21,961 nt of DNA, from contig JAJOLG010000011.1 in NCBI GenBank assembly GCA_021129445.1, positions 1 to 21,961 on the forward strand. The letters are read 5' to 3'. Shown piece after piece: positions 1-21,961 of this stretch. The notes below the pieces were generated by a model that was not told where the DNA came from, did no database searches, and worked only from the letters and a program-made list of their open reading frames with translations. Within the stretch, counting starts at the first letter, position 1; each line of letters opens with the position of its first letter. A program made the translations under genes and the position numbers. The DNA is from Candidatus Altimarinota bacterium. GTDB lineage: Bacteria > Patescibacteriota > Gracilibacteria > GCA-2401425 > JAJOLG01.

Positions 1-1
1 A

Positions 2-271
2 AGAAATGAAATAAATTGAAAAGATTGATGATGAATTTGAGAAGATGTTGATATTTTAAAAAATTTTACTGATGTTTTAAAGTGAGAATGAAATTTTTCG
101 ACTAAGATTCAAGATGCATTTTCAGAAATTACAGAATCATTTGATACAGAAAAAATGAAATCTTTGATGGATTCTGATTGAAATATTAAAATTGCGACAA
201 TTGATGACAAGGATTCAAAAAAAATGAATATTACTTTTATTTCAGCAAAAGAATTTTTAAAAGATGAATAA
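2..271 (+). CDS. Hypothetical protein, C-terminal part (5' end outside window)
   Basis: Open from the left edge and read with TGA as glycine; 89 codons are visible before TAA, and the start lies upstream of the window. The visible part begins with a polar, glycine-rich stretch (three consecutive TGA codons at 26-34) and continues as an acidic, Lys/Asp/Ser-rich segment with no membrane helix or motif I recognise. It is rich in Ile and Asp and ends in KEFLKDE. Its stop overlaps the start of the next gene by 8 bases (ATG at 264), so the two are probably translated from one mRNA. I cannot name a family. It is coding on evidence of the unbroken frame and the operon-like overlap. Confidence 0.6.
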
Positions 272-596
272 AACACAAAAAATCCAAAAAATAACCGACC
301 TGCTTCAAAATAACTCAAAAATCCCTCAGCAAAAGAAAGCAGAAATTTTTAATAAAATTCAAGAAATGAATTCATCTTCTTTGGATATTTTGATTGATTT
401 TTTGGAAAATTTTTCTGAAAAGTGAGCGGATGAGGCCTTGTGAGAAATTCAAAAAAGGCAAATTAAATTGAAGAAATACACAGAAAAAGTGTTTTCCGAT
501 GCGAAAAAAGAAGTTTTTGAAATTGCACAAGAGGAGCAAAAAAATGAAGATGAAAAAATTTTGGCAGAATTGGAAAATGAGGTGGAAAAAGTTTAA
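264..596 (+). CDS. Small charged coiled-coil-like hypothetical protein (110 aa)
   Basis: 110 residues under code 25, starting at an ATG that overlaps the previous stop by 8 bases (ATGAATAA arrangement), which suggests translational coupling. The protein is highly charged and Gln/Lys/Glu-rich. A run of helix-favouring residues through the centre (LDILIDFLENF, then KRQIKLKKYTEKV) and a Glu-rich tail (residues about 90-110) make a helical or coiled-coil fold likely. There is no signal peptide or transmembrane segment. Two in-frame TGA codons, before GADEAL and before EIQKR, need recoding for the gene to be intact. I do not recognise a family and infer only a small soluble helical protein working with its upstream neighbour. 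Confidence 0.7.
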
Positions 597-801
597 TTAT
601 TTTTTAAGAAAAAATTTAATTGCTTCTTTATTTTTCACATTTCATCAAACCGATGTGTATTTTGATTTTCTGTCGATAATGATATTTTTTATTGTTTTGA
701 CTTTAAAATCAAAAATTTTTTCCGTTCAAAAATTTATTGCGAGGTTCAAAATTTTATTTTATTTTTTTATTTTTAAGATAAAATTTTTTAAACAAAAATA
801 A
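577..801 (+). CDS. Possible small basic membrane protein (74 aa)
   Basis: A frame starting at an ATG inside the 3' end of the preceding gene (20-base overlap) and ending in TAA. It encodes a basic, Phe-rich protein with one convincing hydrophobic helix around residues 36-48 (FLSIMIFFIVLTL) flanked by Lys and Arg. There is no in-frame TGA, so unlike most genes here the recoding gives no support, and AT-rich DNA can produce Phe/Lys/Ile-rich frames by chance. The frame is open further upstream to 499, but that part overlies the better-supported gene at 264-596. The overlapping start and the otherwise empty interval to 865 favour a real gene, with moderate doubt. Function unknown. Confidence 0.4.
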   Translation: MRWKKFNYFLRKNLIASLFFTFHQTDVYFDFLSIMIFFIVLTLKSKIFSVQKFIARFKILFYFFIFKIKFFKQK

Positions 802-865
802 AAATTTTTTTTGCTTTTATTTTTTTTAAAAATAAATTTTTTTCATCAAAAAATAATTTTTTACG

Positions 866-1672
866 ATGACAAAAAAAACAAAAAAAATAATTTTAAAAAT
901 ATTAAAAATTTTATTTCAAATTTTTAATATTTTGCTGATTTTATTGACAATTTTTTTAACATTTGTTGCCCTTTTTAAAAAGGAGCGGATTGAAAATTTT
1001 ATTGAATGATTGAAGGTGCAAGTTGAGCATTTGGGGATGTGGAATTATGTGATTGCTTGAAGTTCTGCGGGGATTGAAAATATTCCGGTTTTGTGAAATA
1101 TGCTTCCTGGGCAAAATATTTTGCTTTTGGTTTGATGATTTTTTGGGAATGTTTCGGTGGAAAATGTGATTTATTTGATTGTAATTGCCACAATTTGATG
1201 AATAATTTGAAATTTTATTTGATTTTTTTTATGAAAAGAATATTGAGAGGAATTTTTCAAAAAATATTGAATTTGGATTTGAATTTGAAAAACCGAAGTA
1301 AAATATTTGGAAAAATGAATTCATAAATGGTGAGCTTGGTGAATAATTATTTGAAAATTTCACCCGATTACAAGAGCATTTTTGCCGTTTATCGCTTGAA
1401 GTATGAAGATGACATCTGCAAAATTCATAATTTACAATGCAATTGCATCGTTTGTTTATGCACTTGTGATTGTTTGAATTTGAGTTTTATTTGTTCAACA
1501 TTACAAGGTTATTTTGGATTATCTTTGACATATTATGTTGTGAATTATAATTATTGCAGGGCTTTATATTTATTTTTACAAAAGAGAGGCTTTCAATAAA
1601 TATATGAAGGAGAAAAATTTGGAAATGATGGAAATGGAGGCGGGTATGAAGAAGAAATTTAAGAAAAAATAG
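866..1672 (+). CDS. DedA-family (VTT/SNARE-associated domain) membrane protein
   Basis: 268 residues with TGA as Gly. DedA proteins are inner-membrane transporters; members recycle undecaprenyl phosphate or flip phospholipids. Visible hallmarks: a basic N-terminus followed by a hydrophobic helix (about residues 14-36), a re-entrant region with PGQNILLLVGGFFGN (81-95), a glycine-rich helix GGIIGNFIGFFLGKEYG (111-127), the signature GKFHPITRAFLPFIAG (163-178) with its conserved Pro and Arg, and terminal hydrophobic helices at about 190-238. A Lys/Met/Glu-rich C-terminal tail makes it longer than the usual 200-220 residues. Many of the signature glycines are TGA codons, so the gene is unreadable in the standard code. 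The TAG stop is immediately followed by the ATG of the methyltransferase, implying one operon. Family assignment is firm; substrate unknown. Confidence 0.9.
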
Positions 1673-2248
1673 ATGTCAAAAATAGCTTTTTTTAAACAAT
1701 TTTTACAAAAAAATAAACAGGTCTGAGCGATTTTGCCAAGTTCAAAATTTTTAGCAGAAAAAATTATCGATAAAAATATTTTACAAAATTCAGAAGTTAT
1801 TATTGAATTTTGAGCGGGTCCTTGAGTTTTTACAGAAAAAATTTTTGAGAAATTGTGAAATAATTTTGATAATAAAAAAATTTTTATAATTGAAAAAGAA
1901 AAAGAATTTTTTGATATTTTGATAAAAAAATTTCCTGAGCAGAAAAGTTTTTTTTATAATATTGATGTTTTGGATCTAAAATCAATTTTAGAGAAAAATA
2001 ATATCAAAAAAATTGATTTGGTGATTTCATGACTTCCTTTTAAGTCTTTACCAAAAGAGATTTTTATTTTTTTAATGGAAGATTTTTTTGTGAATTTTTT
2101 TGATAAAAATTCGTATTTTATACAATTTTCATATTTTGAAAGTTTTAAAAAAAATCTTGTAAAATATTTTCCTAATATTGTTGTGAGTAAATGTAATTTA
2201 AATGTGCCTCCTGCACATATTTTTAAATGTTGTGGTTTTTGAAAATAA
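1673..2248 (+). CDS. SAM-dependent methyltransferase, KsgA/PmtA (phospholipid N-methyltransferase)-like
   Basis: 191 residues; the ATG directly abuts the stop of the DedA gene. The class I methyltransferase core is clear: motif I EFGAGPG (45-51), an acidic strand end FIIEKEKEF (71-79), and ISGLPFKSLP (118-127) in the motif IV position. The N-terminus KNKQVGAILPSSKFLAEKI is the arrangement seen in phospholipid N-methyltransferases of the PmtA type, which also resemble rRNA adenine dimethylases. The SGLPF motif fits the lipid enzymes better than the NIPY of KsgA. It probably methylates a lipid headgroup such as phosphatidylethanolamine, but this is inference. Coupling to a DedA transporter supports a membrane role. 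A hairpin terminator follows at 2271-2298. The methyltransferase fold is certain; substrate uncertain. Confidence 0.8.
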
Positions 2249-2270
2249 AAATATGCGATTTTAGAATTTA

Positions 2271-2298: not shown

Positions 2299-2310
2299 CT
2301 TGAATTTTAA

Positions 2311-2387
2311 TGGCGGAATTGACGAGATTCGAACTCGCGACTTCCTGCGTGACAGGCAGGCGCTCTAACCAGCTGAGCTACAACTCC
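2311..2387 (-). tRNA. tRNA-Asp(GTC)
   Basis: On the minus strand a complete 77-nt cloverleaf can be folded. The acceptor stem is GGAGTTG with CAATTCC (one G-U), followed by discriminator G and an encoded CCA. The D arm contains AGCTCAGCTGGTTAGAGC, the anticodon stem is CCTGC/GCAGG with loop CTGTCAC, giving anticodon GTC (Asp), and the T arm carries the GTTCGAATC loop. The 3' CCA is genomically encoded. It is far more GC-rich than its surroundings. This is not the glycine tRNA that reads UGA, which must be elsewhere in the genome. Confidence 0.96.
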
Positions 2388-2541: not shown

Positions 2542-3822
2542 ATGAAACCATTAAAACAAGAACTTCAAGAAAGGTGATTATTTTTCCAGTTTTCTAGTGA
2601 AGATTTTTTTGAAAAATGTGATAAGTGAGAATGAAGTTTTTATTGCGGATTTGATCCGACTGCGGATTCTTTACATTTGGGAAATTTTATTTGATTTATG
2701 GTTGCTGTGCATTTGATGTTGAGGTGAAATAAATTTACAGCATTGACCGGTTGAGCAACTTGAATGATTTGAGATCCGTGATGAAAAGATGCAGAGAGAG
2801 CATTTTTATCTGAAAAAGTTTTAGATGAAAATCAGGAAAAAATTTCTCAGCAAATTAAAAAAATTTCTGAAAACCTTGAAAATTTTACATGAAAAAAATT
2901 GCATTTTGATTTTGTAAATAACAAAGATTTTTACAAAAATATGTGATATTTAGATTTTTTGAGAGAAGTGTGAAAATTTATCACGGTGAATAATATGATT
3001 GCGAAAGATACTGTGAAAAAGAGGATTGAAGATGAGAATAAATCAATTTCTTACACTGAATTTTCTTACATGCTTTTGCAATGATACGATTTTTTGCATC
3101 TTTTTGAGGAAAAAAACATAACTTTGCAGATTTGAGGGCAGGATCAGTGGTGAAATTTGGTGACTTGAGCTGAAATTATCAGGAAAAAATTGAATAAAAA
3201 AGTTGATGTGATGACTTGGCCTTTGATTACAGATTCAACTTGAAAAAAGTTTTGAAAATCCGAATGAAATGCAATTTTTTTGGACAAAAAAAAGACAAGT
3301 CCGTATTTTATTTATCAATATTTTATGAATACGGCGGATGAGGATATTTCAAAATATTTGAAAATGTTAACATTGATTGAAGTTGAGGAAATAGACAAAA
3401 TAACAGAAAAACATTTTGAAAATCCTGCTGAAAGATATGGTCAAAAAATTTTAGCTTTTAAAGTTGTTGAAATTTTACATTGAACAGATGAAGCAAAAAT
3501 GGCGGAAAAAATTTCGGATTTTATGTTTTGAAATACTGATAAAATGGAGGTTTTAAAAAAATTAACTTCTGACGAAATTGAAACTTTTCAAAATGCAATT
3601 TGAGGTTTTAAATATGATTGAGAAAATTTATTTGAAGTTTTGGTAAAATCTTGACTTGAAAAATCAAATTCAAATGCGAGAAATTCTGTGAAATGAAATG
3701 CGATTGCGATAAATTGAGAAAAAATTTCTGATTTTGAGTATGATTTTGAAAATAATTTTTTGGAAAATTGAGTGATTTTAGTTCAAAAATGAAAGAAGAA
3801 TTTTAGGATTTTGACAAAATAA
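2542..3822 (+). CDS. tyrS: Tyrosyl-tRNA synthetase
   Basis: 426 residues, the normal length for bacterial TyrRS; it charges tRNA-Tyr in the cytoplasm. The class I catalytic domain shows [16 protein letters not shown] with the HIGH-type motif HLGN at residues 45-48, then LTGGATGMIGDPGGK, the tyrosine-binding QIGGQDQWGN, and the KMSKS-type loop KFGKS at 236-240 followed by EGNAIFLD. An S4-like RNA-binding domain occupies about residues 360-426 ([19 protein letters not shown]). Most of the invariant glycines (for example in GGATG, IGDPGG and QDQWGN) are TGA codons, strong direct evidence for UGA=Gly. The gene is preceded by an A-rich leader without a Shine-Dalgarno motif and followed by a hairpin terminator. 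Assignment is essentially certain. Confidence 0.97.
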
Positions 3823-3883: not shown

Positions 3884-4114
3884 ATGAGAATAAAAGTGAA
3901 AACTGTTAAAGGAACTGATAAAGAATTAGCAAAAAAACTTTTTTATTCTGCTTGAAATTTAGAATATTTGCCAAACATCAAATATTGCAAAAAATTAATA
4001 AATTTTTCACCAAAATATAGATTAAGAGTTGGAGATTATAGAATTTTTTTTGATATAAACGATGATATTATTTTAATTAAAAACATAAAACAAAGAAAAG
4101 ATGCTTGCAAATAA
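3884..4114 (+). CDS. RelE/ParE-superfamily toxin-like protein (76 aa), no antitoxin partner
   Basis: 76 residues. The C-terminal half, SPKYRLRVGDYRIFFDIND followed by DIILIKNIKQRKDA, is the standard RelE/ParE-fold signature: a basic strand R-L-R-V-G-D-Y-R, an acidic turn, then a hydrophobic strand and a basic end resembling the mRNA-interferase active surface. The N-terminal half is helical (ELAKKLFYS). The family cleaves mRNA at the ribosome or inhibits gyrase. No antitoxin gene lies next to it: tyrS with its terminator is upstream and prepilin peptidase begins 4 bases downstream. Glycine is coded twice by GGA and once by TGA, whereas most genes nearby use mainly TGA, hinting at acquisition or different constraint. 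It may be a solitary toxin-fold regulator rather than an active toxin. Confidence 0.8.
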
Positions 4115-4118
4115 TTTA

Positions 4119-5195
4119 ATGATTTTATCGTTTTTCACAGTTTTATGATTGATTTTTTGATCCTTCACAAATGCCCTCGTTCGGAGAATTCACGAATGAA
4201 AAAAAATTTCTGAATGAAGATCAGAATGTCCAAAATGTAAAAATCAATTAAAATTTTGGGATTTAATTCCACTTTTTTCTTGGATTTTTTTGAGGTGAAA
4301 ATGCCGTTATTGCTCGGAAAAAATCTGAATTCGTTATCCTTTGGTTGAGTTTTTTTTCTGATTTTTCTTTTTTTTAACAACATTTTTTTTATTTCCAGAA
4401 AATTTTTTTTGAACTTTCCAAAATTTTTTTCTTTCTTGATGAGATTTTTTTACAAATTTAAAAAATTTTTTTTCATCATCAGAAAATTTTTCTGAAATCT
4501 TAAATTTTTTTTTAATACTATTTTTAGTTTGAAATTTTTTAGTTTTAGCAATTTACGATATTTTATTTTTGGAAATCATCGATTGAATTGCAATTTGGAT
4601 TGGTTTTTTGGCTTTGTGATTAAGTTTTACTGATTTTTGATTTGTTGGTTTTCAAGATTGATTTTTGTGATTTTTGATAATTTACACTTTTTTTTACCTG
4701 CAAATTTTAATTCCATGAATTATTTTTTTCGTAAAATGAGAATTTTTGGGGCAAAAAAAATTTTTTTCCTTGAAAGAAAAAATTTCTTGAATCGGAAAAA
4801 TTTTTTCAAGTTATTTTATTTTTCCAATTTGGATGTTTTTAAGGTTGTTTTTTTCGGAAAAATTTTTAGAAAAATTTAAAATTTTTGCAGACGAGCAAAA
4901 AAATTTTCAGTGAAAAGAATTTGAAATTCCAGCTTGGATTTGAGGCGGGGACTTGCGTTTTGCACTTGTGATGTGATTTATTTTGTGATGGCAAAAATCG
5001 ATTTTAGCATTATTTATTTCATATTTAATTTGAGGGATTTACTCGATTATTTTCATGATTTTTGAAAAAATTTCGTGAAAAAATTTTTCTCACGAAATTC
5101 CATTTTTGCCGTTTTTGACACTTTGAACTTTTTTAGTTTTGCTTTTTTGAGATGAAATTTTGAGCTTTTATTTTGAGAATTTTTTGTATTTGTAA
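4119..5195 (+). CDS. pilD: Type IV prepilin peptidase / N-methyltransferase (PilD/GspO family)
   Basis: 358 residues under code 25, one uninterrupted frame. Prepilin peptidase cleaves leader peptides of type IV pilins and N-methylates the new terminus at the inner membrane. N-terminal LIFGSFTNALVRRI is the family signature. The zinc-type motif CPKC (37-40) ... CRYC (62-65) frames LIPLFSWIFLRGKC, followed by IRYPLVE. The first catalytic aspartate fits YD (Asp147) in LAIYDILFLEIIDG, and the second is Asp278 in WIGGGDLRFAL. The C-terminus has IPFLPFLTLGTFL. Between the two aspartates is about 130 residues, unusually long, containing a Phe/Lys-rich segment. It starts 4 bases after the RelE-like gene, suggesting cotranscription. 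Together with pilin genes elsewhere it implies type IV pili. The family is certain; the enlarged loop is odd. Confidence 0.92.
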
Positions 5196-5208: not shown

Positions 5209-6315
5209 TTAAACCCTTTTCTTCCAAAAATAACATTTCTCCCCTCAATTATACAACTTCCTCTTTTTATAAAAATCTCTTTTAGTCAAATAATCAAAAT
5301 CAAAAAAACTCGAAATTATTCATCATTTTAATTCAGGATTTTTTCTAAAAAGTTTATCAATATTTCAATACATTTCATTTAAATCTTCAACTTTTATTCT
5401 TTCTCAATAAGGCGGATTTGAAACTAAATTTCAAGATAGTTTTTCGTTTAAAAGTTTTTTAAAATCTTTTTGTTCAAATTTTATTACATCGTCAACTCAT
5501 GCAAGTTTTGCGTTATTTTTAGCAATTTCTAAAATTTCTGGGTTATTGTCTGATGCGAAAATTTTATAATCTCAATCGTAAATTTTTTTTCTTGCTAAAT
5601 TTTTTTCTGTTTCCAAAATTTTTGGGTCTATCAAATCTAACCATTCAAATGCAAAATTTCTGTGCAATCACGGAGCGATGTTTTTTGCTTGCATTGCTGC
5701 TTCAATCACAATTGTTCAGCTTCCGCAGAATGGGTCGTAAAAATTATCTTTAAAAAGCCAGTTTGACGATGAAACTAAAAATGAGGCAAGGGATTCTTTG
5801 ATTGGAGCTGATCAGGATTCTTTTCTGTATCATCTCATGTGAAGTGCGTTTCAAGAGGTGTTTAATAAGATTCTGGCTTTATTATTTATGATTAAAATCA
5901 AGATATCCATTTTTTCTAATTTTTCATTTTCATCGAAAAATTGTCATTCTCAAACTAGTGATTTTACAACTGCCTTTTTACAAATACTTTGGATGGTTCT
6001 GTCAGAAAATAATTCGCTTCTTACTGAACTTGACCTGATTAAAATCGGATGTTTATTTTTAAAATATTTCCCCCAATCGATTTCAGAGACAAAATCAAAT
6101 AATTCATCAAAAGTTGTCACATTTTCTTTTTCTCATAACGCAATATAAAGTTTATTTCAAACTCTTGACCACAAATTTACCTTTGCAATTAAATCTTCAT
6201 TTCAAGAAAATTGAACCAATCTATCAATGGTTTCTCATAACTTTCATCATTGTTTTTTAACTTCTGTTTTTGCCAATGCTTCCATTCAGGCACTTGTTGA
6301 TAATGCAAAATTCAT
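5209..6315 (-). CDS. rlmL: RlmL-type 23S rRNA guanine-N2 methyltransferase (THUMP + UPF0020)
   Basis: 368 residues. The family makes m2G2445 in 23S rRNA. The N-terminus (ALSTSAGMEALAKTEVKK) matches the ferredoxin-like/THUMP region that begins these enzymes and is followed by a THUMP-like section to about residue 165, with the linker NALHMRGYRK (156-164) typical of the family. The catalytic domain has motif I DPFCGSGTIVIEA (194-206), an acidic SAM-contact loop ASDNNPE (254-260) and the N2-methyltransferase motif NPPYG (300-304) followed by ERI. Length fits the single RlmL unit (YpsC type) rather than the fused RlmKL of gamma-proteobacteria. It converges on the prepilin peptidase with only 13 bases between stops. 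It shares a short divergent promoter region with the antiporter gene. Modified position is inferred from the family. Confidence 0.9.
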
Positions 6316-6384: not shown

Positions 6385-7410
6385 ATGGAATTTTTACATC
6401 ATTTAATCGAATACACTGCACAAAATTGGTACACAGTAATTTTGAGTTTTATTGTAGTTATGGCAGTTTTAAATTTTGCAACTTCAAAATTAGAAGGCGA
6501 ATTAGTCGTAATTTGAAAAAAATTAAAATTGCCAGATTGAGTAAGAGGTGGGACTTTTGATGCTATTTCTTCGTCTTTACCTGAACTTTTGACAGTTTTT
6601 GTTTGACTGATGTCATTTTGAGCAGCGGGTTTGGAAATTTGAATTTGAACCGTTTCGGGTTCGGCGATTTTTAATATTTTGATAATTCCATTTTTCTCAA
6701 TTTTAGCTTATAAATGAGTAAAAAAAATTTCACCAGAAAAATCCGGAGTTAACCGTGATACGATTTTTTATTTATTTTCAATTATAGTTTTTCTTTTGTG
6801 ATTATATTTTTGAGATTTATTGATAATGTCAATTTGTTTAATTTGAGTTTATTTTTGATATTTATTTGTTTTATTTTTAGATACAGAAAAAAATAAAAAG
6901 TTGAGTAAAAAACTAGTAAATGAAGCATTTGAAGAAGTGAAAAATACAAAAATTTCATATTGGACAATTTTTTACTCTTTGGTTTTGATTTACTTGTGAG
7001 TTGAGGTTGCAGTTGCTTGTGCAAGCTTTGTTTGAGAAAATTTGTGAATTTCTGCAATGGTTGTTTCGCTTGTGATTTTGGCAGCAGTTACATCAATTCC
7101 AGATACTTTACTTTCCGTAAAATCCGCAAAAAAATGAATGATAAATGCATCACTTTCAAATGCTGTTGGGTCAAATATTTTTGATATTTGTATCTGATTA
7201 TGAGTTCCGATTTTTATTTGAGTGGCGTTTTTGTGATTAAATCCAAAAGTTGATTTCGCACAAAATGCACCAATTTTTGTATTTTTGGTTGCTTCTGTGA
7301 TTTTTTATTATTGAATTTTACAGAAAAAAAATATTAAAAAAATTGACTCACTTTGGTTTTTAATGTTTTATTTGTGATTTTTAGGGTATTTGGTACGGAT
7401 TTCAGTTTAA
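6385..7410 (+). CDS. Sodium/calcium exchanger (CaCA) family antiporter
   Basis: 341 residues, length typical of bacterial YrbG-like exchangers with two homologous halves. The alpha-1 repeat is seen at about 54-100 (GGTFDAISSSLPELLT ... SGSAIFNIL), and the alpha-2 repeat at about 233-275 (AAVTSIPDTLLSVKSA ... NAVGSNIFDICIGLG). Both contain the conserved Pro-Glu/Asp pair and the GS-IFN/D signature that binds cation. Around ten hydrophobic helices separated by a cytosolic lysine-rich loop near 165-180 are apparent. It would exchange Na+ or H+ for Ca2+ across the inner membrane. It lies divergently from rlmL and 65 bases before mscS on the same strand, with no clear terminator between. Family certain; ion specificity not determined by the sequence. 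Confidence 0.93.
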
Positions 7411-7475: not shown

Positions 7476-8567
7476 ATGCAAAATTTCTTACAAACAACAA
7501 AAAATTTTTTCGAACCAATAAAAAATTTTTTAGAATCAACAGAATTTTTTTGAAATAATTTAGAAAATATTTTAATCGCAATTTTTATTTTTTTCTGAAT
7601 TTTAGCTTTAAGATTTGCTTTGCAGATTTTTTTTGACAAAAAAATTAAAATTTATGTTAAAAAATCTAAAACAAAAGCTGATAATATAATTTTTGCATCG
7701 GTTCAAAGATTTATAAAATTTTGATTTTTGATTTTGGCATTTTATTTTGCAAAATTTTCGATAATTTTACCAGAAAGTACAGATGATTTGGTAAATAAAA
7801 TTTTAACAGTTACTTTTACTTGATTTGTAATTTTTTTAATTCAAAAATTATTTGCCGATTTGATTTGATACTTTTTCTCTTGTTTTGATTGAGAAAAATA
7901 TTTAGCATCAATGGTAAAAAATATCTCAAATATTGTTGTTTATTGACTTTGAGCATCTTTAGTTTTATCACAGCTTTGATATAATGTTTCAACCCTTGTG
8001 GCTTGATTGTGAATTTGATGATTAGCAGTTGCTCTTGCAGTTCAACCGATTTTATCATCGATTATCGCATCATTTTCATTATTTTTTGATAAACCATTTA
8101 AAGTTTGAGATATTATCAGGATTTGAGATACTTTATGAATAATTTCAGAAATTTGATTGAGAAATGTGAGAATTAAAACTTTTCACTGAACAGAGGTTAT
8201 TATGTGAAATATGGATGTTTTAAACTGAAAAATTGAAAATATTTCATTTAGAGAAAAAGTGAGAGAGGATTTTTGACTTTGAATAATTTATGAGATTTCA
8301 ACAGAAAAATTGAAAGAGTGAATGAAAATTTTGAGAGAAATTTTAAGTTCAAAAGATTGAATTGATAAGGATATCAGGATTTTATTTTCTGATTTTTGAG
8401 ATTTTTCTTTGAATTTGAAAATTACATATTTTTTTGATGGAAGTTTAACTTTTGACGAAAGATTGGCTTTGAAATCTGAGATAAATTTGGAAATAAAAGA
8501 GAGGTTTGAGCAGGCAGGGATTGATTTTGCTTATCCTACTGCGGTTAGGATAAATAAAAATGTTTAG
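7476..8567 (+). CDS. MscS-family small-conductance mechanosensitive channel
   Basis: 363 residues. These channels open under membrane tension to release solutes on hypo-osmotic shock. After a polar N-terminal helix, several hydrophobic helices are visible (about 28-45, 75-95, 105-125, 140-175). They end in the pore helix GGLAVALAVQPILSSIIAS (about 182-200) and directly the family signature FDKPFKVGDIIRIGD, the beta domain GTEVIMGNMDVLNGKIENIS, and the alpha/beta C-terminal domain to about 355. Many glycines in the pore helix are TGA codons, including two adjacent ones. An A-rich leader precedes the ATG. It follows the CaCA antiporter and is ended by a hairpin at 8593-8626. Identification is secure. 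Confidence 0.93.
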
Positions 8568-8708: not shown

Positions 8709-10310
8709 ATGAATTATTCACAAGAATCTTTGGAAAGAATTGAAAAAGTAAAAAATTTGAAAAAGGCTTGAATAAGCCCTTATGCGAATAAATTTGATAA
8801 AAAAAATTCTTTGGATGAGTTGAAAAATCTTTCAGAAGAAAAATTTTCTGATGTTAATTTTTTGATGGAAAATTGAGCGGAAAATAAATTTTCAACAGCT
8901 TGAAGAATGATGACTTTTAGAGCCCATTGAAAACTTTCTTTTGCAAAAATAAAAGATTTTTCATGAGAATTGCAAATTGCTTTTGTTAGAGATAAAGTAA
9001 AAATTAGAAATAAAAATGAACTTTTGGATGCGATAAAAGTTTGAGAAATTGAGTATACTGCTTATAAATTTATCGAAAAAATAATTGATTTGTGAGATTT
9101 TGTTTGAGTTAAATGAGAAATGTTTGTGACAAAACACTGAGAACCGACACTTTTTGTAAACGAAATTCAGATTTTATCGAAGGCAATTCGTCCGCTTCCT
9201 GAAAAATTTCATTGAATTCAAGATCAAGATGCAATTTATCGTCAAAGGTATTTGGATTTTACAATGAATGATAAATCTTATCAAAATGCGGTTTTGAGGA
9301 CAAAAATAGTGAAGGCGATTAGGCAATTTTATTGGAAAAATGATTTTTCGGAGGTAGAAACACCAGTTTTATGAAATTCTGCGAGTTGAGCAGCGGCACA
9401 GCCTTTTATTACTCATCATAATGATTTTGATCAAGATTTTTATTTGAGAATTGCACCAGAGACTGCCTTAAAAATGACAACTGCTTGAAGATTCGAAAGG
9501 GTTTTTGAGATTTGAAAAAATTTTAGAAATGAGGGGTCTAGCCCAACTCATATGCAGGAATTTACTGCGGTTGAGCATTATGCAGCTTGGTGGAATTTTG
9601 AAGATAATATGAAATTTACAGAAGAAATGTTCGATTTTATTTTTACAGAATTGTGAATTTCGAGAAAAATAATGGTAAAAGATAAAAATTGAGAAGCAAA
9701 AGAGGTTGATTTTTGAAAGAAATTTGAAAAAATTGATTATATTGAGTGAGTAAAAAAAGAATCGTGAATTGATATTTCTGAATTTTGAGCGGAAGATGAG
9801 GATGAATTGAGGGATTTGATAAAATCAAAATGAATTCAATTTGAGTGAATGGACAAAATGTGAACAACAACTTTAATTGATTATTTGTACAAAAAAGTTT
9901 TGAGACCGAAAATTTTATGACCTGCTTTTGTTTATAATTATCCAAAAACAATGCAACCACTTGCAAGGCAAAATGATGAAAATCCGTGAATTGTTGAGCA
10001 GTTTCAATTAGTTGTAAATTGAAATGAGATTTTAAAAGCTTATTCTGAGCTTGTGGATCCGTTTATTCAAGCGGAAAATTTTAATGTTCAGTGAGATGCA
10101 CTTGAAAGATGAGATGAGGAGGCAACAGCATGAGATGACGAGTTTTTGCTTGCAATGGAGCATTGAATGCCTTGTCAATCAGGTTGGGGGATGTGAATTG
10201 ATAGGTTTGTATCGATTTTAACAGAGCAAGATAATTTAAGGGATACGGTTTTATTTCCTTTGATGAAGCCGGTAAGTGGTGAGGAAAAAGTGGAAGAAGT
10301 TGGTGAATAA
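8709..10310 (+). CDS. lysS: Lysyl-tRNA synthetase, class II
   Basis: 533 residues; charges tRNA-Lys. The N-terminal OB-fold anticodon-binding domain (about 55-160) contains [17 protein letters not shown]. Class II motif 1 region follows ([11 protein letters not shown] ... [17 protein letters not shown]), then motif 2 [16 protein letters not shown] (about 262-277) followed by [15 protein letters not shown], and motif 3 GWGMGIDRFV (about 492-501). AYSELVDPF and the acidic DEEATAGDDEF stretch fit the lysine enzyme. Length is slightly above the usual 490-510 because of the region around residues 325-400. Motif glycines are mixed TGA and GGN, a direct test of recoding. Flanked by the mscS terminator and its own terminator, it is probably monocistronic. 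Secure. Confidence 0.97.
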
Positions 10311-10421: not shown

Positions 10422-11006
10422 ATGATATCAAACTTAACTTTTGCAGTTTTAGATACAGAAACAACAGGTTTTAATCCTGATAAATGAGACAGATTACTTG
10501 AAATTTGAATTGTTAAAATCAAAAATTGAAAAGTTTCAAGAGAGGATGCTTTTGAAACTATGATAAATCCAGAAAGAAATATTCCACTTTCTGCAAGTCG
10601 TGTAAACCATATTACTGATGAAATGGTGAAAGATGCACCGACAATTGATAAAATTATTCACGATTTTGTAAAATTTTTTGATGGAGTGGATTACACTTTA
10701 ATTCATAATGCAAAATTTGATATTTGATTTATCGAGCGGAATTTGAAAAAATTTTGATATGAGGATTTTAAAATGCCAAAAATTATTTGTACAATGGAGC
10801 TTTCAAAAGCACTTTATCCGCATTATAATGCACATAATCTTGATGCAATTGCGAAAAGATTTTGACTTTCAATTACAGATTGAGAGTTGAGACACAGGGC
10901 TTTATGAGATGTGATTTTGACAGGTGAGGTTTTTTTGAAATTTGTTGAGGAAAATCCTATGTTGATTTTTTCGATGATGGATGAAATTTCATCAAAATTT
11001 AACTAA
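10422..11006 (+). CDS. DnaQ-like 3'-5' exonuclease (DEDDh family)
   Basis: 194 residues. Exo I motif FAVLDTETTGFNP (7-19) supplies the Asp/Glu pair. Exo II is seen in YTLIHNAKFDIGFIER with Asp after NAKF. Exo III is the DEDDh version, HRALGDVILT, with His and Asp spaced by five. The insert HNLDAIAKRFGL before it is typical of DNA polymerase III epsilon subunits and related proofreading exonucleases. It acts on 3' ends of DNA, as proofreading subunit or in repair; there is no fused polymerase or UvrC domain, and no clear C-terminal clamp-binding motif can be recognised. It has its own promoter and A-rich leader. The DEDDh nuclease call is firm; assignment as the replicative proofreader is a reasonable inference. 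Confidence 0.9.
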
Positions 11007-11504: not shown

Positions 11505-11526
11505 TTAAAAAAAATAAACAAAAATA

Positions 11527-13293: not shown

Positions 13294-13968
13294 ATGAGTA
13301 AAAATACAATAATTCCGTCGATTAAAGACCAGGCTTTGGTTTTGGATAGACTTGCAGAATTTTATTTTTCTTGAATTGATAGTTTTGTTGAGTTGATATC
13401 TGAGATGACATGAGAAATTTCTTTTAAAAAATTAAGGGCTGTAATTTTGTATTTAGTTGAGTTTTGATATATTCAAAGGTCTTATACTTGAAAATGAAAT
13501 GAATTTTATGTAAAAATTACGAAAAAATGAATTGTTTATTATGAAGAAATTTTTTCATCTGAAAATGTAAATAATGAGAAAAAATTAACTTTTCTTGAAA
13601 AAATAAAGAAAGTTTCTGAATGAGTTGGTGCAGTAAAATGAATTGCAACATGAGTTGTTGCGGTTTTTACAATTTTATGAGTTTGATTTCATTCTGAAAT
13701 TTCAAATCAATTTTCTGCAAAAATTTTGCAAACTAATGAAAAAAATGAAATTGTTTTTACTCAAAAAGAAGCAATTAGGTTTTTAAAAAATAAATTTGAA
13801 AATGTAAAATTTAATTGTGTTTTTATTCAAAAAAATACTTTTTCTTGTAAAGTTATAAAAGATAAAAAACTTCAAGTTTTACATTGAAGTTTTGAAGAAA
13901 AAAGACTTGTTGATAAAAAAATTATTTTGAGAAAATGACCTGACTGAGAAATTTTTTTAGTTAAATAA
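13294..13968 (+). CDS. Unknown protein: winged-helix-like N-terminus, one membrane helix, C-terminal domain (224 aa)
   Basis: 224 residues with TGA as Gly. Residues about 10-90 look like a winged-helix module: helices LDRLAEFYF and SFVELISEM, then LRAVILYLVEFGYIQR as recognition-type helix and wing, and NEFYVKITKKGIVYYEEI. A glycine-rich hydrophobic segment, about residues 113-132 (VKGIATGVVAVFTILGVGF), may be one membrane helix. The remaining ~90 residues form a charged, Cys-containing domain ending VDKKIILRKGPDGEIFLVK. This arrangement could be a membrane-tethered regulator, but no known family is recognised and the DNA-binding role is inference. It lies between the murF terminator and the minus-strand fmt block; its end overlaps the neighbouring convergent gene by 12 bases. 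Confidence 0.75.
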
Positions 13969-14193
13969 ATTTTTTATTTTACGATAAATAAAGTTTAAAA
14001 TATTATCAGAAATACAATCAACTTTTTCTCAATTTTCGTAAGATTGTATAAAATTATTTTGCTCTTTATTTTTTTTAATATTTTCTTGGACTCTTTTTTC
14101 AAATTGCTCATCAAAATATTTGCTGTTGTGAAATTGATTTAAAGGTTCATCTGATAAGTCTCTTTCGAAGTATTCTGTATTTTTTCAAAACAT
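13957..14193 (-). CDS. Small hypothetical protein downstream of fmt (78 aa)
   Basis: 78 residues, starting 4 bases after the fmt stop on the same strand, so most likely its operon partner. The sequence is hydrophilic, with an acidic first third (FERDLSDEPLNQFHNSKYF), a Lys/Gln/Asn-rich helical middle (FEKRVQENIKKNKEQ) and a helical end NILNFIYRKIKNLF. It has two in-frame TGA codons and ends in TAA overlapping 12 bases of the convergent winged-helix-protein gene. No signal peptide, membrane helix or known motif is recognised. It is supported mainly by operon position and by the in-frame TGA codons, and its function is unknown. Confidence 0.65.
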
Positions 14194-14197
14194 AAAA

Positions 14198-15130
14198 TTA
14201 AGTTAAAGTTGTTCAAATAAAATTTTGATTTCAATTGATAAAATCAGAAATTTTTTGTGCTTTTTTTCATTCTAATTGCACTTCTAAAATTTCTAAAAAT
14301 CAATGAATAGTATTTATAAAAATTTTTTTATCAATTACAATAACTTTTCAAGGTTTTTTTATGTGATTTTTTTCACATTTTTTATCAAAACTTGCTTTTA
14401 AAATTTTTAATTTTTTCTCTCAAAAATAGCAAAAAACTCATGGCCAAGGGGTAAAAGCATTTAATTTTTGCAGAATTTCTTTTGAAGATTCTTTTTCAAA
14501 ATTTATTTTTCAATCTTCTTTTGAGATTTTTTTGCAATAAGTTGCCAAATTTTCATCTTGTTTTTGAGGTTTTAATTCTCATTTGAAAATTTTTCCCAAA
14601 TCATCGCAAAAATTTTTTGCAAATCATTTCATTTTTTCAAAAATTTTTTCTGTGGTGTCAAATTTTTCAATTTTGCATTTGTGGATATTCCAAACAGCTC
14701 ATGCATCCATTTTTTCTTCCAAATTCATTGTTGAAATTCAGGTTTCCGAGTCTCAATTTAAAATTGCCGATTGAATTGGCGATGCTCCGCGATATTTTGG
14801 CAAAATGCTTCAATGTGCATTGATATTAAATTTTGCGATTTCAAGCGATTCTTTTGGTAAAATTTTTCAATATGCAACAACAACGAAAAAATCAGGTTTT
14901 TCATTTTTTAAAATTTCAGTAATTTCAGATTTTTTTTCTGGTTGAAAAACTGGAATTCAGTATTTTTTTCAAATTTTTTTTGTTTCAGTTTCTGTTAAAA
15001 TTTGCTTTCTTCAAATTTTTTTATCTTCTTGTGAAATAATTGCAGAAACAGAAAATCTTCAATCTTGAATAATTTCCTCCAAATATTTTGCAGAAAAATC
15101 TCATGTTCCTGCGAAAACTATTTTTATCAT
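14198..15130 (-). CDS. fmt: Methionyl-tRNA formyltransferase
   Basis: 310 residues; formylates Met-tRNA(fMet) for translation initiation. The N-terminal Rossmann motif is KIVFAGTGDFSAKYLEEI (residues 3-20). The catalytic core has FFVVVAYGKILPKESL followed by the signature INAHGSILPKYRGASPIQ (103-120) with Asn104 and His106, then NGDSETGISTM and the catalytic-type aspartate in MDAG (Asp142). The C-terminal tRNA-binding domain is indicated by LNAFTPWPGVF followed by basic strands to the end. Length matches the family. The tga codons fall at glycines of FAGTGDF, AHGS and ILNGD. Start chosen because MIKIVFAGTG is the canonical N-terminus. It is followed within 5 bases by a 78-aa gene and preceded by rpmA. 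Secure. Confidence 0.96.
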
Positions 15131-15209: not shown

Positions 15210-15488
15210 TTATTTATCAACTACATTTACAACAGTATTTTTGTAAGTTCTTCAATTAAATTTCATTTTTCTTTCAATTGTAAATTTTACAACTCAATCA
15301 CGAATTGCGAAAATTGTGTGATCTCTTCAAAGTGAAACTCATTTTCAAGGATGCCATTTTGTTCATCTTTGTCTAACGATAATATTTCAAGATTTTACAG
15401 TTTCTCATCAAAATTTTTTTACTCACAGACGTTGTCATTTACTGTCTCTGGTGTTTTTTGCCGTACCTCATGCTAGCTTATGTGCCAT
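15210..15488 (-). CDS. rpmA: 50S ribosomal protein bL27
   Basis: 92 residues, a near-textbook bL27. It begins MAHKLAGGTAKNTRDS, continues GQRLGVKKFGGETVKSGNII and VRQRGTKWHPGKGVSLGRDH, and ends NGRTYKNTVVNVVDK. The N-terminal tail reaches the ribosomal peptidyl transferase centre. No N-terminal cleavage extension like that of some Firmicutes is present, since the Met-Ala-His start is immediate. A high fraction of glycines (LAGG, RLGV, FGG, SGN, RGTK, PGKG, DGV) are TGA codons in this extremely conserved protein, making it one of the best proofs of UGA=Gly in the window. Own promoter (TATAAT at 15508-15503 on minus strand) and a strong terminator. Certain. Confidence 0.98.
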
Positions 15489-15752: not shown

Positions 15753-18700
15753 ATGAAAAAAATTTTTAGCTTAATTTTAATTTCTATATTTTTTACAAAT
15801 ATTTTTTCTGTTCAAAATATTTTTGCAGAAGAAAAAAAAGACAATTTTCCGGATAAATCAATTCCAGAAATTACAAAAATTGAGATGGTTTATGCAAATA
15901 AAGAGTGAGATTTTTTCATTTATTGAAAAAATTTTTGAAAAGATTTGGCTAACATTGAAGTTTTAGTTGCACCAAAAAATTTTGATTTGTGATTGTGAAA
16001 ATGAGAAAAAAATCAAATCAAAGTAAGAGTTGATAAAATTTATAATACAATGTTAACCTGAAAAATTGAACAGGAGTATAAAAATTGAATTTTAATTGTA
16101 AAAAAGAAAATCTGAGAAAAAGAATTTGTTTCTTCGAATAAGAAAAAAGTGGATTTTTGACTTCCAACTTTGAAAAAAGTTGAAGCACCGAATTGATTTT
16201 TGTGATGAAAAAAGGTGATTTTTTCGTGAGAAAATTTTAAAAAACCGATTTATTGAATTTTGTGATCCGAGAAAATAATTTGTGAAAAAGATGATGAAAA
16301 CACTTGTGAAATTACAATTCCAAAAGATATAACAATTTCTTGAAAAATCTGAATTGAATCATATTGATTTGAAACTTTGCTTTGAGAAAGTGTTTCTATT
16401 GAAAAAACAGCAACTGTGAAAGTGACTTCATATTCAAACAATTTGATAAATTTTTCTGTAAAAGGTTTTGAATTTAAAGATTTGATTAAACCTTTAAAAA
16501 CAAAAAAAGATTATGATGATTTTCAGGATTGAAAGCCAATGGAGTTGAATTCTTGAATAAAAGTTTATGTTGATTGACAAAATTTAACAAAATGTACAGT
16601 TTATAAAACTTTAAGAATTTCTTGTGAAATAGATAAAGAAATTTATCAGCAATGAATTTGATATATTGATTTTTTTGGGATTAAAACACCATTTTTTTCT
16701 TATGATTTATCGGATAAAACACCATATTTAAGAGATTTTAAAAATGAAATAAAGTGGTCATCTTATCAAGATTGAAAATGACAAACTGTTGAGGGAAATA
16801 GGATTTATATCACCATGTGAGTTGAAAATTTTGAGTATCAAAGATCAAATGAGCTTTGACAAGCCACAAAAAATGATTTTGTTTTGGTGTTTTGATGAAA
16901 GGAATACAAGGTTTGAGATAGAAATTTTACCCTTTGAAGGAATAAAGTTGAGCTAAAATTAGAGGATTTTCCATCAAAAATGCAATGAGATATTTATGTA
17001 AAATTGTGAAATGTTGTTGGAAAATCAATTCCTTACGATTTTTGAGATTATATTCCAGAAATTTATAAAGTTTATAAATGAGAAAAAAAAGATGAATTTG
17101 TGATTGAGTGAAAAAATTTAACAAATTTTAATAATTTAGATGCATCGTTAAGCTTTTGAGATATTTCTTTATCGACAGCTGATATTAAAAAAATAATGTC
17201 AGAAAAAGAAAAAGAGGCAAAAGAAATTATTAAAAAATATGAAGATTGGATAAAATTGGAGGAAAAAGAAGATTTGCCAGATACTGAAAAAATAAATTGA
17301 TATAGAAATCAAATTTCAAAATGGAATTCAGTTTTGATAGATTTACAAAATTGAATTTATGAAAGAAATTATAAAGATGAATCAAAAACAGAATGAGAAA
17401 TTGTAAAAAAATCTGATACCAGAATAGTTTTTAAAGTTTTTGATGCAGGTGAATATTGAAAATCAATTTGAAAATGAGATTATACTGTTTCTGTGACTTC
17501 AAATTGACAAACTACAAATAAAATTGATTTTTTTTACGACCCAGAATATCCATTAAATGAAGCATTTGCATATCCAGAAATTGAAAAAATGTATTTTGTA
17601 AATTGAGCATGAGATCCTTCAAAAATTGAAATTAAATGAAAATTTTTAGATAGAATAAAAGAATTATATTTTACTGATTTGAAGGCACAAATTATTAAAA
17701 AAACAAAAAATTTACTTTTAGTTGAGGTTGATCCATGAGCAATTTTAAGAAAAAGGTGAACAATTATTGCCAAACTTGATGATTTTACAATGACTAGTAA
17801 TTTACTTTTTTATGAATTTATTGACGATAAAACAAATGAAATTTCTTTAAAGTGGAAGAAAATTGAGAAAAAACTTGATAAAGATTGAAATCCAATTTCT
17901 GAAAAAATTGATGAAGATAAAAAAACTTTTGAGTTATTATTTAAAAATACTTATAAAGATTTAATTTTAAAAAATTTAAAAATTAAAATTGAAAAATTAG
18001 ATAATTGAGATTTTCCATTTTATGATTTTTCTTTGAATTATCCGTGATGAAGTTTAAAGTGAGTTTATGATAAAAAATCAAAAACAATAAATTTTAAAAA
18101 TACAGATTTTTCAAAAATTATTCCTGTAAATACTGATAAAATGTACGATTTTATAATTACTTTTAATAAAATAAATTTTTGAAAGTGAGAAGTAAAAATC
18201 TCTGTTGTTGATTTAAATTTTTATGATGATTTTAAATTTCCAAAGAAAATTTCATCTAAAAAAATTTCATTTTCAAAAACTCCAAAATTTTATCAAGTTT
18301 CAGATGATTTTTGAAAATTTTGTAGAGAAATAAATTTAAAATGAGAGTTTGTGCTTTGTTGATCAGAAATTTGATTTGATAATTTGGAAGAGTCTGATGT
18401 TTTTAAAGAAGAGGTTATAAAATCTGATTTTAGAGCACCAAAAAAAGATACTTCAAAAATTGCAGATTTTGTTGATGTTGATAAAAATCAATGGTTTGAA
18501 CCATATGTTGTAGATTTATTCCAAAGGTGAATTATTCAATGATATTGAGAGAAATCAAAATTTTTTAAACCTTTAAAAACGATTACAAGGGCAGAGGCTG
18601 TAAAAATTTTGTTAATTGCAAGAAGTGAAGATGTATCAGATTTGAGTTATAAAGTTTATGCATTTGAAGATGTTCCAGAAGGGCATTGGGCGAAAAATAT

Positions 18701-19007
18701 TTTGGAATATGCTGTTAGAAATAAATTTTTGAGTCCTGTGAAAAATTTTCATTTAAATAGAGAGATTACAAGAGGTGAGGCGGCAAAGTTAATTACAAAG
18801 TTTTTTTGAAGAACGGTGCCAAAATATTCACAATTTTCACTTTTGGATTTGTGAAAACATTGGTCATCAAATCATGCAGAGTATTTGTTTCAAAATAAAA
18901 TAATTTCTTGAGTTTGAGATACAAATGAATTTAAACCTGAGAATAAAGTGACGAGATCGGAATTTGCTAAAATGATTAGTTTGGCGATGAAATATTGGGC
19001 AAGGTAA
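15753..19007 (+). CDS. Large secreted surface protein with IPT/TIG-like modules and three C-terminal SLH repeats
   Basis: 1084 residues in one frame once TGA is Gly. An N-terminal signal peptide (Lys-rich start, hydrophobic core FSLILISIFFTNIFS, cut probable near Ala26) exports it. Immunoglobulin-like IPT/TIG modules are suggested by repeated phrases of the form P-x-I-x-K-V-x...G-x-N-F, for example YGKNFGK, FSGENFKK, IEGKNLTNF and IKGKFLD. An internal charged, helical stretch (about 470-530) may be a coiled-coil spacer. Three SLH-like repeats end the protein (about 905-960, 970-1015, 1028-1084): QWFEPYVVDLFQRGII ... TITRAEAVKIL, GHWAKNILEYAVRNKF ... ITRGEAAKLIT, and HWSSNHAEYLFQNKII ... KVTRSEFAKMI. 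SLH repeats bind cell-wall polymers, so this is probably an S-layer or surface-attachment protein. A hairpin terminator follows. Confidence 0.85.
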
Positions 19008-19102: not shown

Positions 19103-19507
19103 ATGATAAAAAAAAATAATCAATTTTTTAAGGCTTTTAAAACAAATTTTTCAATAATTTTTTGGAGTATTTTTATAATTTCAACATTATTTTTTTTATC
19201 AAAATCATTTTATGAAGAAAAAAAAGTTGATGATTATTTAATTGAGTTTAAGAAACAAAATCAAAAAATTTGACAAAAAAATTTACAACAAGAACAGGAT
19301 TTAAAATTTTTTGAGTCAAAATTTTACAAAGAAATTTATGCAAAAGAAAATTTAAATCTTTTGAATAAATGAGAAAAAGTGATTATTTTTGAAGATTGAG
19401 ATAGTTGAAAAAAGTTTTTTTTGGAAGATTTTTTGAAGGAAAATTTTACTGATGAAAAAGAAATTACAAATGCACAAAAATGGGCAAAATTATTTAATTT
19501 ATATTAG
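19103..19507 (+). CDS. FtsB/DivIC-like septum formation initiator (134 aa)
   Basis: 134 residues. The architecture is that of FtsB/DivIC: short polar N-terminus (MIKKNNQFFKAFKTN), one membrane helix at about 17-33 (SIIFWSIFIISTLFFLS), then a Lys/Glu/Gln-rich periplasmic coiled coil (about 34-75) and a small C-terminal part with YKEIYAKENLNLLNKGEKVIIFED. The last phrase resembles the family's ARE-x-L-x-x-VKxGE-x-VI motif, which is the best specific evidence. FtsB-type proteins link FtsL and FtsQ in the division complex at the septal membrane. The stop overlaps the stop of the convergent dCMP deaminase gene by three bases. Family is probable rather than certain. Confidence 0.75.
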
Positions 19508-19953
19508 TTTTCTAAATCTTCAATTTGAATAATTTCTTTTCAATTTTCTTTTACAAATTTTTCAGCATCGCTTGTTCATCACATTTTATCATATTTTTTA
19601 GAATAAACAATTTTTTTAATTCAGCTTGCTAAAATATTTTTTGTGCATTGAAAACAAGGTTCCAAAGTGCAATAAATTGTTGATCATTCAATTTCAACTC
19701 AATTTCTCGCAGCCCATAAAATCGCATTCATTTCCGCATGAATTTCGTATTTTAAAGACCAATCGTGATGATCTTTTGTGTATTCTCATTTCCAATAATC
19801 GCAACAATTTATGTATCAAGACGGTGTTCCGTTGTATCAAGTTGATAAAATTCTATTGTCTTTAACAATAACAGCTCAAACTTGTTTTGAAACACACTTT
19901 GATCAAGTTGAAATTTCTTGTGCGATTTTTAAAAAATTTTTATCTGTTAGCAT
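19504..19953 (-). CDS. Deoxycytidylate (dCMP) deaminase-like cytidine/deoxycytidylate deaminase
   Basis: 149 residues. Converts dCMP to dUMP for thymidylate synthesis, a zinc hydrolase of the cytidine deaminase superfamily. The family signature is intact: HAEMNAIL with zinc ligand His72 and general acid/base Glu74, and CTLEPCFQC with zinc ligands Cys100 and Cys103. The N-terminus has [27 protein letters not shown], the usual start of dCMP deaminases (ComEB/Dcd type), and the inserted Cys/His-rich section (NCCDYW, KDHHDW) is that of dCMP rather than guanine or tRNA deaminases. The start is supported by length. It converges on the FtsB-like gene with stops overlapping. A gene symbol is not given since ComEB and dcd-type names both apply. 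Confidence 0.92.
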
Positions 19954-20224
19954 AGTAGTTGATTTTTTTTGTAGAAAATAATAGAAAAAAATTGTAAGGC
20001 AAATTTCTTATTGGAAATTGTTGAAATATTTTTTGTTTTCATATATCAATTAAAAAATTCATACAATCAGCGATGATTTTTGGAAAGACCAAGTTTTAAC
20101 AATAAAAAAATTTAGACAAAAAATAAATTAAAAAATAAATTTCTTGAAAAAAGAAAATAAAATTTTTCAATTTAAATATTGAAAAATAAAGCGTTAAACT
20201 TCACTAGATCCTTTTTTAAACAAA
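19954..20224. other. Non-coding interval between dCMP deaminase and pnp terminator
   Basis: About 270 bases without a convincing gene on either strand. The only gene-like piece is a frame of about 24 codons at 20054-20130 (peptide including SDDFWKDQVLTIKKF), which lacks an ATG start and is stopped just upstream. It is slightly more G/C-containing than its surroundings. It also holds the dCMP-deaminase leader. No strong hairpin or tRNA is seen. Confidence 0.4.
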
Positions 20225-20254
20225 AAAAATCTGGAAAAAATTTTCCAGATTTTT
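20225..20254. terminator. pnp terminator (bidirectional hairpin)
   Basis: A 14-bp perfect stem (AAAAATCTGGAAAA with its complement) with a very short AA loop, so the inner pairs will not form; A- and T-tracts on either side. It lies 13 bases after the pnp stop on the minus strand. Confidence 0.85.
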
Positions 20255-20267
20255 AATTTTTTTTAAA

Positions 20268-21961
20268 CTAATTCAACCCTTTCATCGTTAATTTATTTCT
20301 ACCTTGAGAATCAATTTCAACTAATTTAACTTTTACAAAATCTCATTCCTTTGGCATTTCAGAAATATCATTTATTCTTTTGTCAGAAATTTGAGAAATG
20401 TGAACTAATCAGTCAATTCAGGTCATAAATTGAACAAAAATTCAGAATTCCATTACTTTTACAACTTTTCATTCATAAATTTTTCAAGGTTCTGGTTTTT
20501 CCAAAAGTGTTTCAATATATTTTTTAGCAGCATTTCATAAAAGCTGAGTTTCTGCTGTAATTACCACATTTCATTCATCAGAAATATTTATTTCACATCA
20601 AAATTCTGCAATAATTTTATTAATTGTTTCTCATCATTTTCAAATCACAATTTTAATATCGTCTTCTGAAATTTTGAAAGAAATAAGAGAAGGTGCAGTA
20701 TCTTTTAATTTTTTTCTTACACTTGGAATTGCAGAAAGCATTGCATCCATTACTTTTAATCTTCACAATCTTGCTTTTTCAAAGGCTTCTTTGAAAATTT
20801 CCATTTTTATTCAAGTTAGCTTGATGTCCATTTGAATACAAGTAATTCAATCTTTTGTTCAAGTCACTTTGAAATCCATATCTCATCAGAAATCTTCTTC
20901 ATCTTGTAAATCTGTCAAAACTTTATATTCTCAAGTTTCGTAATCTGTCATAAGTCACATTGCAATTCAAGAAACAGGTTCTTTGATTGGCACTCATGCA
21001 TCCATTAAAGAAAGTGTTGATCAACAAGTTGCAGCCATTGATGATGAACCATTTGATGATAAAATTTCACTTACAACTCTGATTGTGTATGGAAAATCTT
21101 CAACTGATGGTAAAACAGGTTTTAATGCTCTTTCAGCAAGTGCTCAATGTCAAATTTCTCTGTTTCAAGTCATTAATCTATTTGAAACTTCTCAAACTGA
21201 AAATGGAGGGAAGTTATAATGATGGAAATAATTTTTTGTTGAATCTCATTCAACTCAGTCTATTATTTGCACATCTCAAGGTCATCAAAGTGTCACAACT
21301 GATAATCATTGAGTTTCTCATCTGTTAAAAAGTCAAACTCAGTGAACTCTTGGTAAAATATCAACCTCACAGTTTAAAGGCCTAATTTCATCAAGTCATC
21401 TTCATTTTATTCTTCTCTCTTTTTTTAAAATGTTGTATCTGATTACTCATTTTTGAACTTTATTGAAAACTTCCATTACTTCTTTTTCATTACAAATTTC
21501 TTCTTCATCAGAATTTAATTCTTCACAAATTTCCTTTGCTGCAAGTTTTGATAAATCTCACATTTTTGCAAATCTATCTCATTTTGAAATATCTTCATAA
21601 ATTATTTCTTCAATTTGATCAGAATATTTTTCTTCAATTAAAGGTTTAATTCTTTCATCTGGAATTTTTACCTCATATTTTCTTTTTTCTTTTCAAACTT
21701 CTTTTTTGATTTTTTCAATAAATTCAATAAATTTTTTTCAATTTTCTAATCAAAATTCCATCGCTTCAATCATTTTTTCCTCTGTGATAATATTTGCACC
21801 AGCTTCAATCATCGCAATATTATCTTTTGTACAAGCAACTAAAAGGTCTAAATCAGATTTTTCCATTTCTTCAACAGTTGGATTTAAAATAAAATCTCAT
21901 TTTTCATCCATTCAAACTCTAACTAAAACATTTTCAATAAATGGAATATCAGAAATAGCAA
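20268..21961 (-). CDS. pnp: Polyribonucleotide nucleotidyltransferase (PNPase), N-terminus outside window
   Basis: 564 codons visible, ending in TAG; the complete enzyme is about 700, so roughly 130 N-terminal residues lie beyond the window. PNPase degrades RNA 3' to 5' using phosphate. Signatures of the second RNase PH domain are clear: [50 protein letters not shown], and the catalytic aspartates in DEEDFGGDMDFKVTGTKDG. The helical domain between the PH repeats (the Glu/Lys-rich section near 21450-21800) is as expected. Then a KH domain with GKGG (IVIGKGGETINKI) and a final S1 domain with FGIFVQFMTGIDGLVHIS. Many glycines are TGA, including three of four in IGKGGE. It is followed by a terminator. 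Secure. Confidence 0.97.

Follow-up and report, generated by a model that had tools for sequence, protein, structure and literature searches.

The stretch of DNA analysed here (hereafter, the window) is the 21,961-nucleotide contig JAJOLG010000011.1 of assembly GCA_021129445.1, from Candidatus Altimarinota bacterium. It makes up all of contig C2 in a 77-contig, 672,893-base genome with a completeness of 94.8% and a G+C content (GC) of ∼ 24–25%. In this genome UGA encodes glycine, as in NCBI translation table 25, and we ask where this code came from. Under table 25 the window carries 22 coding frames that make up 91% of its length (two of them are cut by the window ends), and 17 of the 20 window proteins scanned matched a Pfam family. 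The features are listed below with the number of in-frame TGA codons in each.

2..271, + strand: 5'-truncated frame; 8 TGA, TAA end
264..596, + strand: 110-amino acid protein, no Pfam family; 2 TGA
866..1672, + strand: VTT/DedA membrane protein (Pfam); 23 TGA, TAG end
1673..2248, + strand: rRNA adenine dimethylase-like methyltransferase (Pfam); 6 TGA
2311..2387, − strand: tRNA-Asp(GUC), the sole tRNA in the window
2542..3822, + strand: tyrosyl-tRNA synthetase (TyrRS); 29 TGA
3884..4114, + strand: ParE/RelE-like small protein, slightly under the Pfam cut-off; 1 TGA
4101..5195, + strand: A24 prepilin peptidase (Pfam); 27 TGA; codon 28 is CGG, possibly Trp
5209..6315, − strand: RlmL-like rRNA methyltransferase (Pfam); 22 TGA
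6385..7410, + strand: sodium/calcium exchanger (Pfam); 21 TGA
7476..8567, + strand: MscS channel (Pfam); 25 TGA, TAG end
8709..10310, + strand: lysyl-tRNA synthetase (LysRS); 32 TGA
10422..11006, + strand: DNA polymerase III epsilon-like exonuclease (Pfam); 8 TGA
11070..11417, + strand: HPF/S30AE ribosome-hibernation protein (Pfam); 5 TGA
11526..13160, + strand: MurF-like Mur ligase (Pfam); 31 TGA; two CGA at Arg/Lys-like sites
13294..13968, + strand: protein without assigned family; 14 TGA
13957..14193, − strand: small protein without assigned family; 2 TGA
14198..15130, − strand: methionyl-tRNA formyltransferase (Pfam); 20 TGA
15210..15488, − strand: ribosomal protein bL27 (Pfam); 12 TGA
15753..19007, + strand: SLH/TIG surface protein of 1,084 amino acids (Pfam); 69 TGA
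19103..19507, + strand: DivIC/FtsB-like protein, slightly under the Pfam cut-off; 4 TGA, TAG end
19504..19953, − strand: dCMP deaminase (Pfam); 11 TGA
20268..21961, − strand: polynucleotide phosphorylase (PNPase), truncated at its 5' end by the window edge; 46 TGA, TAG end; nearest to relatives that use UGA as a stop

The protein at 15753–19007, with its SLH and TIG domains, is a likely S-layer (surface-layer) protein.

The 22 window frames contain 418 in-frame TGA among 6,616 codons, at least one in every frame, no in-frame TAA or TAG, and terminators that are TAA in 18 cases, TAG in four and TGA in none (0 of 22). Since a raw six-frame reading of the window has 144–251 TAA and 19–48 TAG in each frame, such long open frames cannot be attributed to chance. 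A sequence-only reading of the window, which took UGA for glycine throughout, had counted 23 genes intact only with sense TGA, ending in 19 TAA and four TAG. Sense TGA is indeed needed for every frame and no gene ends in TGA, although our counts are 22 genes and 18 TAA. The motifs that it had named, LAGGT in bL27, GITGSYGKST in MurF, GKGG in PNPase and GQDQWGN in TyrRS, are all present. In genome-wide scans, which covered contigs of at least 3 kb (shorter contigs, 24.5 kb in all, read as N), TGA accounts for 11,442 of the 13,309 glycine codons (86%), contaminant contigs left out. Its share is 74–97% in 61 of the 66 contigs examined and 0–3% in contigs C21, C60, C62, C64 and C66, which have GC of 0.30–0.34, above the rest of the bin, and are standard-code contaminants.

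For the residue tally, TGA, CGA and CGG were masked as X and the proteins were aligned solely to standard-code genomes, which avoids circularity. At 537 masked TGA sites, 69% of the residues in standard-code homologues were glycine. Among the TGA columns conserved at ≥ 70%, 344 were Gly, 11 Ala and 6 Glu (∼ 90% Gly), and Trp fell outside the six commonest residues at masked TGA columns. Controls from the same genome gave 70–85% Gly for GGA, GGT and GGG and 60% Trp for TGG, and a second tally at TGA columns counted 322 Gly, 7 Ala and 6 Lys. For LysRS, the conserved columns of homologues that line up with TGA hold glycine (in up to 79 of 79), and in TyrRS, compared with solved structures with X at TGA, glycine falls in conserved motifs, e.g. 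GGATGMIGDPSG and DQWGN. This alignment check, which had been proposed together with the original claim, thus found glycine prevailing at the TGA columns, with neither Trp nor the ends of homologues there, and the claim is sustained by open frames, terminators and the 344 Gly columns alike. The Gly tally rules out Trp, stop or selenocysteine as the meaning of TGA. We regard tryptophan, selenocysteine or a stop with read-through as vanishingly improbable, in view also of the 418 TGA in 22 genes and of the window's terminators. The sequence shows that UGA is translated as glycine in this genome and that only UAA and UAG act as stops, which is the known code of NCBI table 25.

A second, probable departure from the standard code concerns CGG, a rare codon in this genome (84 occurrences). 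It is found at the Trp of the leucyl-tRNA synthetase motif RQRYWG, at a Trp/Phe position in PRWA of DNA ligase (LigA) and at a Tyr in Elp3. Pfam scores over 15 CGG sites favour Trp by ∼ 14 bits in sum, single sites being mixed, and in methionine aminopeptidase Arg is favoured by 3.2 bits. A tRNA(CCG) gene (contig C5:3026–3102) has A1-U72, A37 and G73 and is Trp-like rather than Arg-like; the identity rules for G73 and A1-U72 are those of PMC8629427. The CGG sites and this tRNA make CGG = Trp probable but not proven. CGA is found at Arg in RecF and MiaA, with a summed Pfam score of ∼ −9 bits for Trp over four CGA sites, and looks to have remained an arginine codon.

The sequence-only reading had correctly noted that the window lacks the expected tRNA-Gly(UCA); its only tRNA is tRNA-Asp(GUC). 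No tRNA-Gly(UCA) was found by ARAGORN, Infernal and a home-made scan among the 26 tRNAs on contigs of at least 3 kb, in which UCC was the only glycine anticodon. This says little, as tRNA-Glu, tRNA-Met and several other tRNAs were likewise not found in these contigs, and an assembly gap can explain the absence of UCA. A pattern search for tRNA-Gly(UCA) across the order and class yielded only Gly tRNAs of other anticodons, mainly UCC, and the UCA-anticodon candidates from the home-made scan were AT-rich noise. Two tRNA(CCA) genes were considered as UGA readers and dismissed: both have 5-bp anticodon stems, so the 4-bp-stem mechanism described in PMC13092985 does not apply. The second of them (C8:1944–2019; C1-G72, G37, A73) has a proline-like acceptor and G37, unlike the regular tRNA-Trp at C4:12904.

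In the public taxonomy the genome belongs to an order with one other genome, G001, and to a class that also includes families with UGA-Gly genomes (f12, f15, f22 and f24) as well as many others in which sense TGA does not occur. There is no sense TGA in LysRS, L2, RpoC or PNPase of G001. Trees were computed on a set of taxa of our choosing, mostly as short searches with SH-aLRT support only. In the tree of 17 ribosomal proteins, of whose columns G001 covers under half, the genome groups with G001 (99) and then with G012 (97) and is separated from every UGA-Gly genome; several f22 genomes with very rare TGA were counted as UGA-Gly. A single UGA-Gly clade is rejected by these proteins in the approximately unbiased (AU) test (p 0.006), and RpoC also joins the genome to G001 (98). 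The combined matrix of the 17 ribosomal proteins with RpoB and RpoC (IQ-TREE, 19 taxa, 3,897 columns) recovers G001 at 100 and G012 at 98, all branches being starred, and rejects a single UGA-Gly clade with a log-likelihood difference of 88 (AU p 0.001). SR4 recoding, which lessens composition effects, again rejects that clade (AU p 0.0076), and in the SR4 trees the UGA-stop genome G003 sits between the window genome and the UGA-Gly clade (94–98). GC is not the cause of this placement, since the window genome (∼ 25%) groups with G001 and G012 (35–38%) and is not attracted by the low-GC UGA-Gly genomes. Four f22 genomes (L294, L296, L298 and L299), which use sense TGA only a few times in 16 kb, are placed by the ribosomal proteins alongside the UGA-Gly clade.

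Protein comparisons point the same way. By identity and bit scores rather than trees, the window PNPase is 55–58% identical to those of G001, G012, G030 and G048 vs 38–46% to those of UGA-Gly genomes, and the glycyl-tRNA synthetase (GlyRS), encoded outside the window, is 50–61% identical to those of UGA-stop relatives vs 43–52%. Scores were better against the UGA-stop relatives in 19 of the 20 genes with matches on both sides, LysRS being the sole exception. Judged by its core genes, then, the genome lies near lineages of its own class without sense UGA and with more than one release factor, and outside the UGA-Gly clade of Absconditabacterales and BD1-5. That the code is known in Gracilibacteria and Absconditabacteria, as the sequence-only reading had it, is true, but these core genes put the genome outside that clade.

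UGA is a sense codon for glycine in this genome, not a stop, and its relatives are almost without UGA in the sampled genes: TGA terminates 0 of 9 genes in G001, 0 of 23 in G003 and 0 of 22 in G012. The UGA-Gly genomes examined have one full-length release factor, which is RF1-like (a short RF-like protein is also present in some), and most UGA-stop relatives have at least two, RF2 being recognized by its SPF motif in G012, G048, G030, G017 and others. G001 has two class-I release-factor genes. We consider it likely that UGA was captured for glycine here, with termination by RF1 only, separately from the Absconditabacterales/BD1-5 clade. In a plausible route by codon capture, the relatives would hardly employ UGA as a stop owing to low GC; RF2 would then have been lost, and a glycine tRNA, presumably a newly gained tRNA-Gly(UCA), would have taken the vacant UGA, which subsequently displaced GGN. 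By analogy with the known cases, the decoder would be a tRNA-Gly with a UCA anticodon that the resident GlyRS charges, and RF1 would be the only terminating factor. Finally, the shared code would make genes of the UGA-Gly clade usable, in keeping with the window's LysRS and TyrRS, which are of that clade's type; both the order of events and the direction of gene transfer are our inference. Such a combination of nearly vacant UGA with low GC corresponds to the situation of the codon-capture model, which PMC8629427 discusses. In most other UGA-stop relatives, too, UGA is almost never a terminator in the sampled genes, and most of these keep at least two RF-family genes.

Several observations weigh against a separate capture. 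In its own tree, LysRS falls inside the UGA-Gly clade (100/100), and its union with G001 is rejected (p 0.0004). TyrRS is 50–57% identical to that of several UGA-Gly genomes vs 29–32% to that of UGA-stop relatives, which have a different TyrRS type (again a comparison of identity and bit scores, not of trees). With RpoC on its own, a single UGA-Gly clade is not rejected (AU p 0.23), and the SR4 p-values are modest: removal of G001, of G001 and G012, or of the long f12 branch gives 0.010, 0.020 and 0.048, respectively. Because UGA is very rare in G001, the second release-factor gene is the main ground for taking it as a stop there. In addition, neither RF1 nor RF2 was found in the contigs of at least 3 kb, just as tRNA-Gly(UCA) was not; as UAG is a stop, RF1 must exist and should lie in the missing part of the genome.

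LysRS and TyrRS could represent the vertical signal, with the genome branching off first within the known UGA-Gly clade and the core-gene trees distorted by the pull of fast-evolving UGA-Gly genomes. Such a single origin needs one code change only and is permitted by RpoC. We nevertheless hold it to be unlikely, if the most serious competitor to a separate capture, because the combined and SR4 analyses reject it, the latter even without G001, without both G001 and G012, or without the long f12 branch, because UGA-stop G003 intervenes in the SR4 trees, and because the public taxonomy, too, places the genome in the order of G001. Synthetases are, besides, prone to horizontal transfer, for which they are well known. 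Placing the genome in the known UGA-Gly clade on LysRS alone is overturned by the other genes, and the simplest reading is that LysRS and TyrRS probably came from that clade by gene transfer.

Mixed binning does not account for this mosaic, as LysRS and TyrRS share their contig with a PNPase of the UGA-stop type. The five standard-code contaminant contigs might suggest a chimeric bin composed of two organisms, but the other 61 contigs have GC and TGA use in common, the window contig by itself combines the two types of genes, and the contigs with the ribosomal proteins and RpoB/RpoC themselves read TGA as glycine. A chimera has been largely refuted and is very improbable.

Transfer might also have brought the code itself. 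The lineage could have received a tRNA-Gly(UCA), perhaps with the Trp-like tRNA(CCG) as well, when it took up synthetases from the UGA-Gly clade or from phages of that clade, and this acquisition would have caused the reassignment. The window LysRS and TyrRS are of that clade's type, an Absconditicoccaceae phage encodes a tRNA-Gly(UCA) (PMC13059738), and CGG = Trp has been reported in the UGA-Gly clade as well (PMC8629427). Against this, GlyRS is native-like, the gene transfer could equally have come after the code change, and the genome has yielded no tRNA-Gly(UCA) gene whose ancestry could be compared. We therefore regard this as improbable. Much the same low expectation attaches to the broader idea that UGA = Gly did not arise twice but passed horizontally, as a genetic code, from one bacterial lineage to another. 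A recipient with near-vacant UGA would have obtained the decoding tRNA together with code-compatible synthetases (LysRS and TyrRS), the source being the older UGA-Gly clade or its phages, and CGG = Trp would have been added or acquired as well.

Reviews assign UGA = Gly to one lineage with a single origin (PMC13293708; PMC11393006). The Methods of a 2022 paper (PMC9793634) mention a hydrothermal-vent metagenome-assembled genome (MAG), 4559-240_metabat1_scaf2bin.085, from the order GCA-2401425, whose open reading frames (ORFs) need code 25, the only other genome of the order being annotated with code 11. In view of this two-genome order, that MAG is probably the window genome or a close relative. 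The paper compares mean ORF lengths only, with no residue, tRNA, release-factor or code-phylogeny test, and a literature search by order name found no further paper on GCA-2401425. The present analysis adds a test at the level of residues, evidence from core genes against one common clade of UGA-Gly genomes, a mosaic of synthetases, the probable reading of CGG as Trp alongside CGA as Arg, and the finding that UGA is nearly vacant in the relatives. A second occurrence of UGA = Gly beside relatives with more than one release factor and scarce UGA would be a replicate of a rare code change, and the sister genomes may display the state before it. The genome also offers a test case for whether codes, or code-compatible genes, move between lineages. 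In practice, such genomes are misread by gene callers that know only tables 11 and 4.

Among known systems, the genome resembles the table 25 users Absconditabacteria (SR1) and Gracilibacteria BD1-5 (GTDB class JAEDAM01) in its glycine UGA, its UAA and UAG stops, its low GC and in that no RF2 was found, here in the contigs of at least 3 kb, where RF1 was not found either. It differs from them in that its core genes go with UGA-stop lineages, UGA makes up 86% of its glycines and tRNA-Gly(UCA) was not recovered. Shulgina and Eddy (2021; PMC8629427) reported Trp as the meaning of both CGA and CGG in Absconditabacteria and of CGG in some Gracilibacteria. The window genome is like the Absconditabacteria in that CGG is probably Trp and a Trp-like tRNA(CCG) is present, and unlike them in that CGA looks to be still read as Arg.

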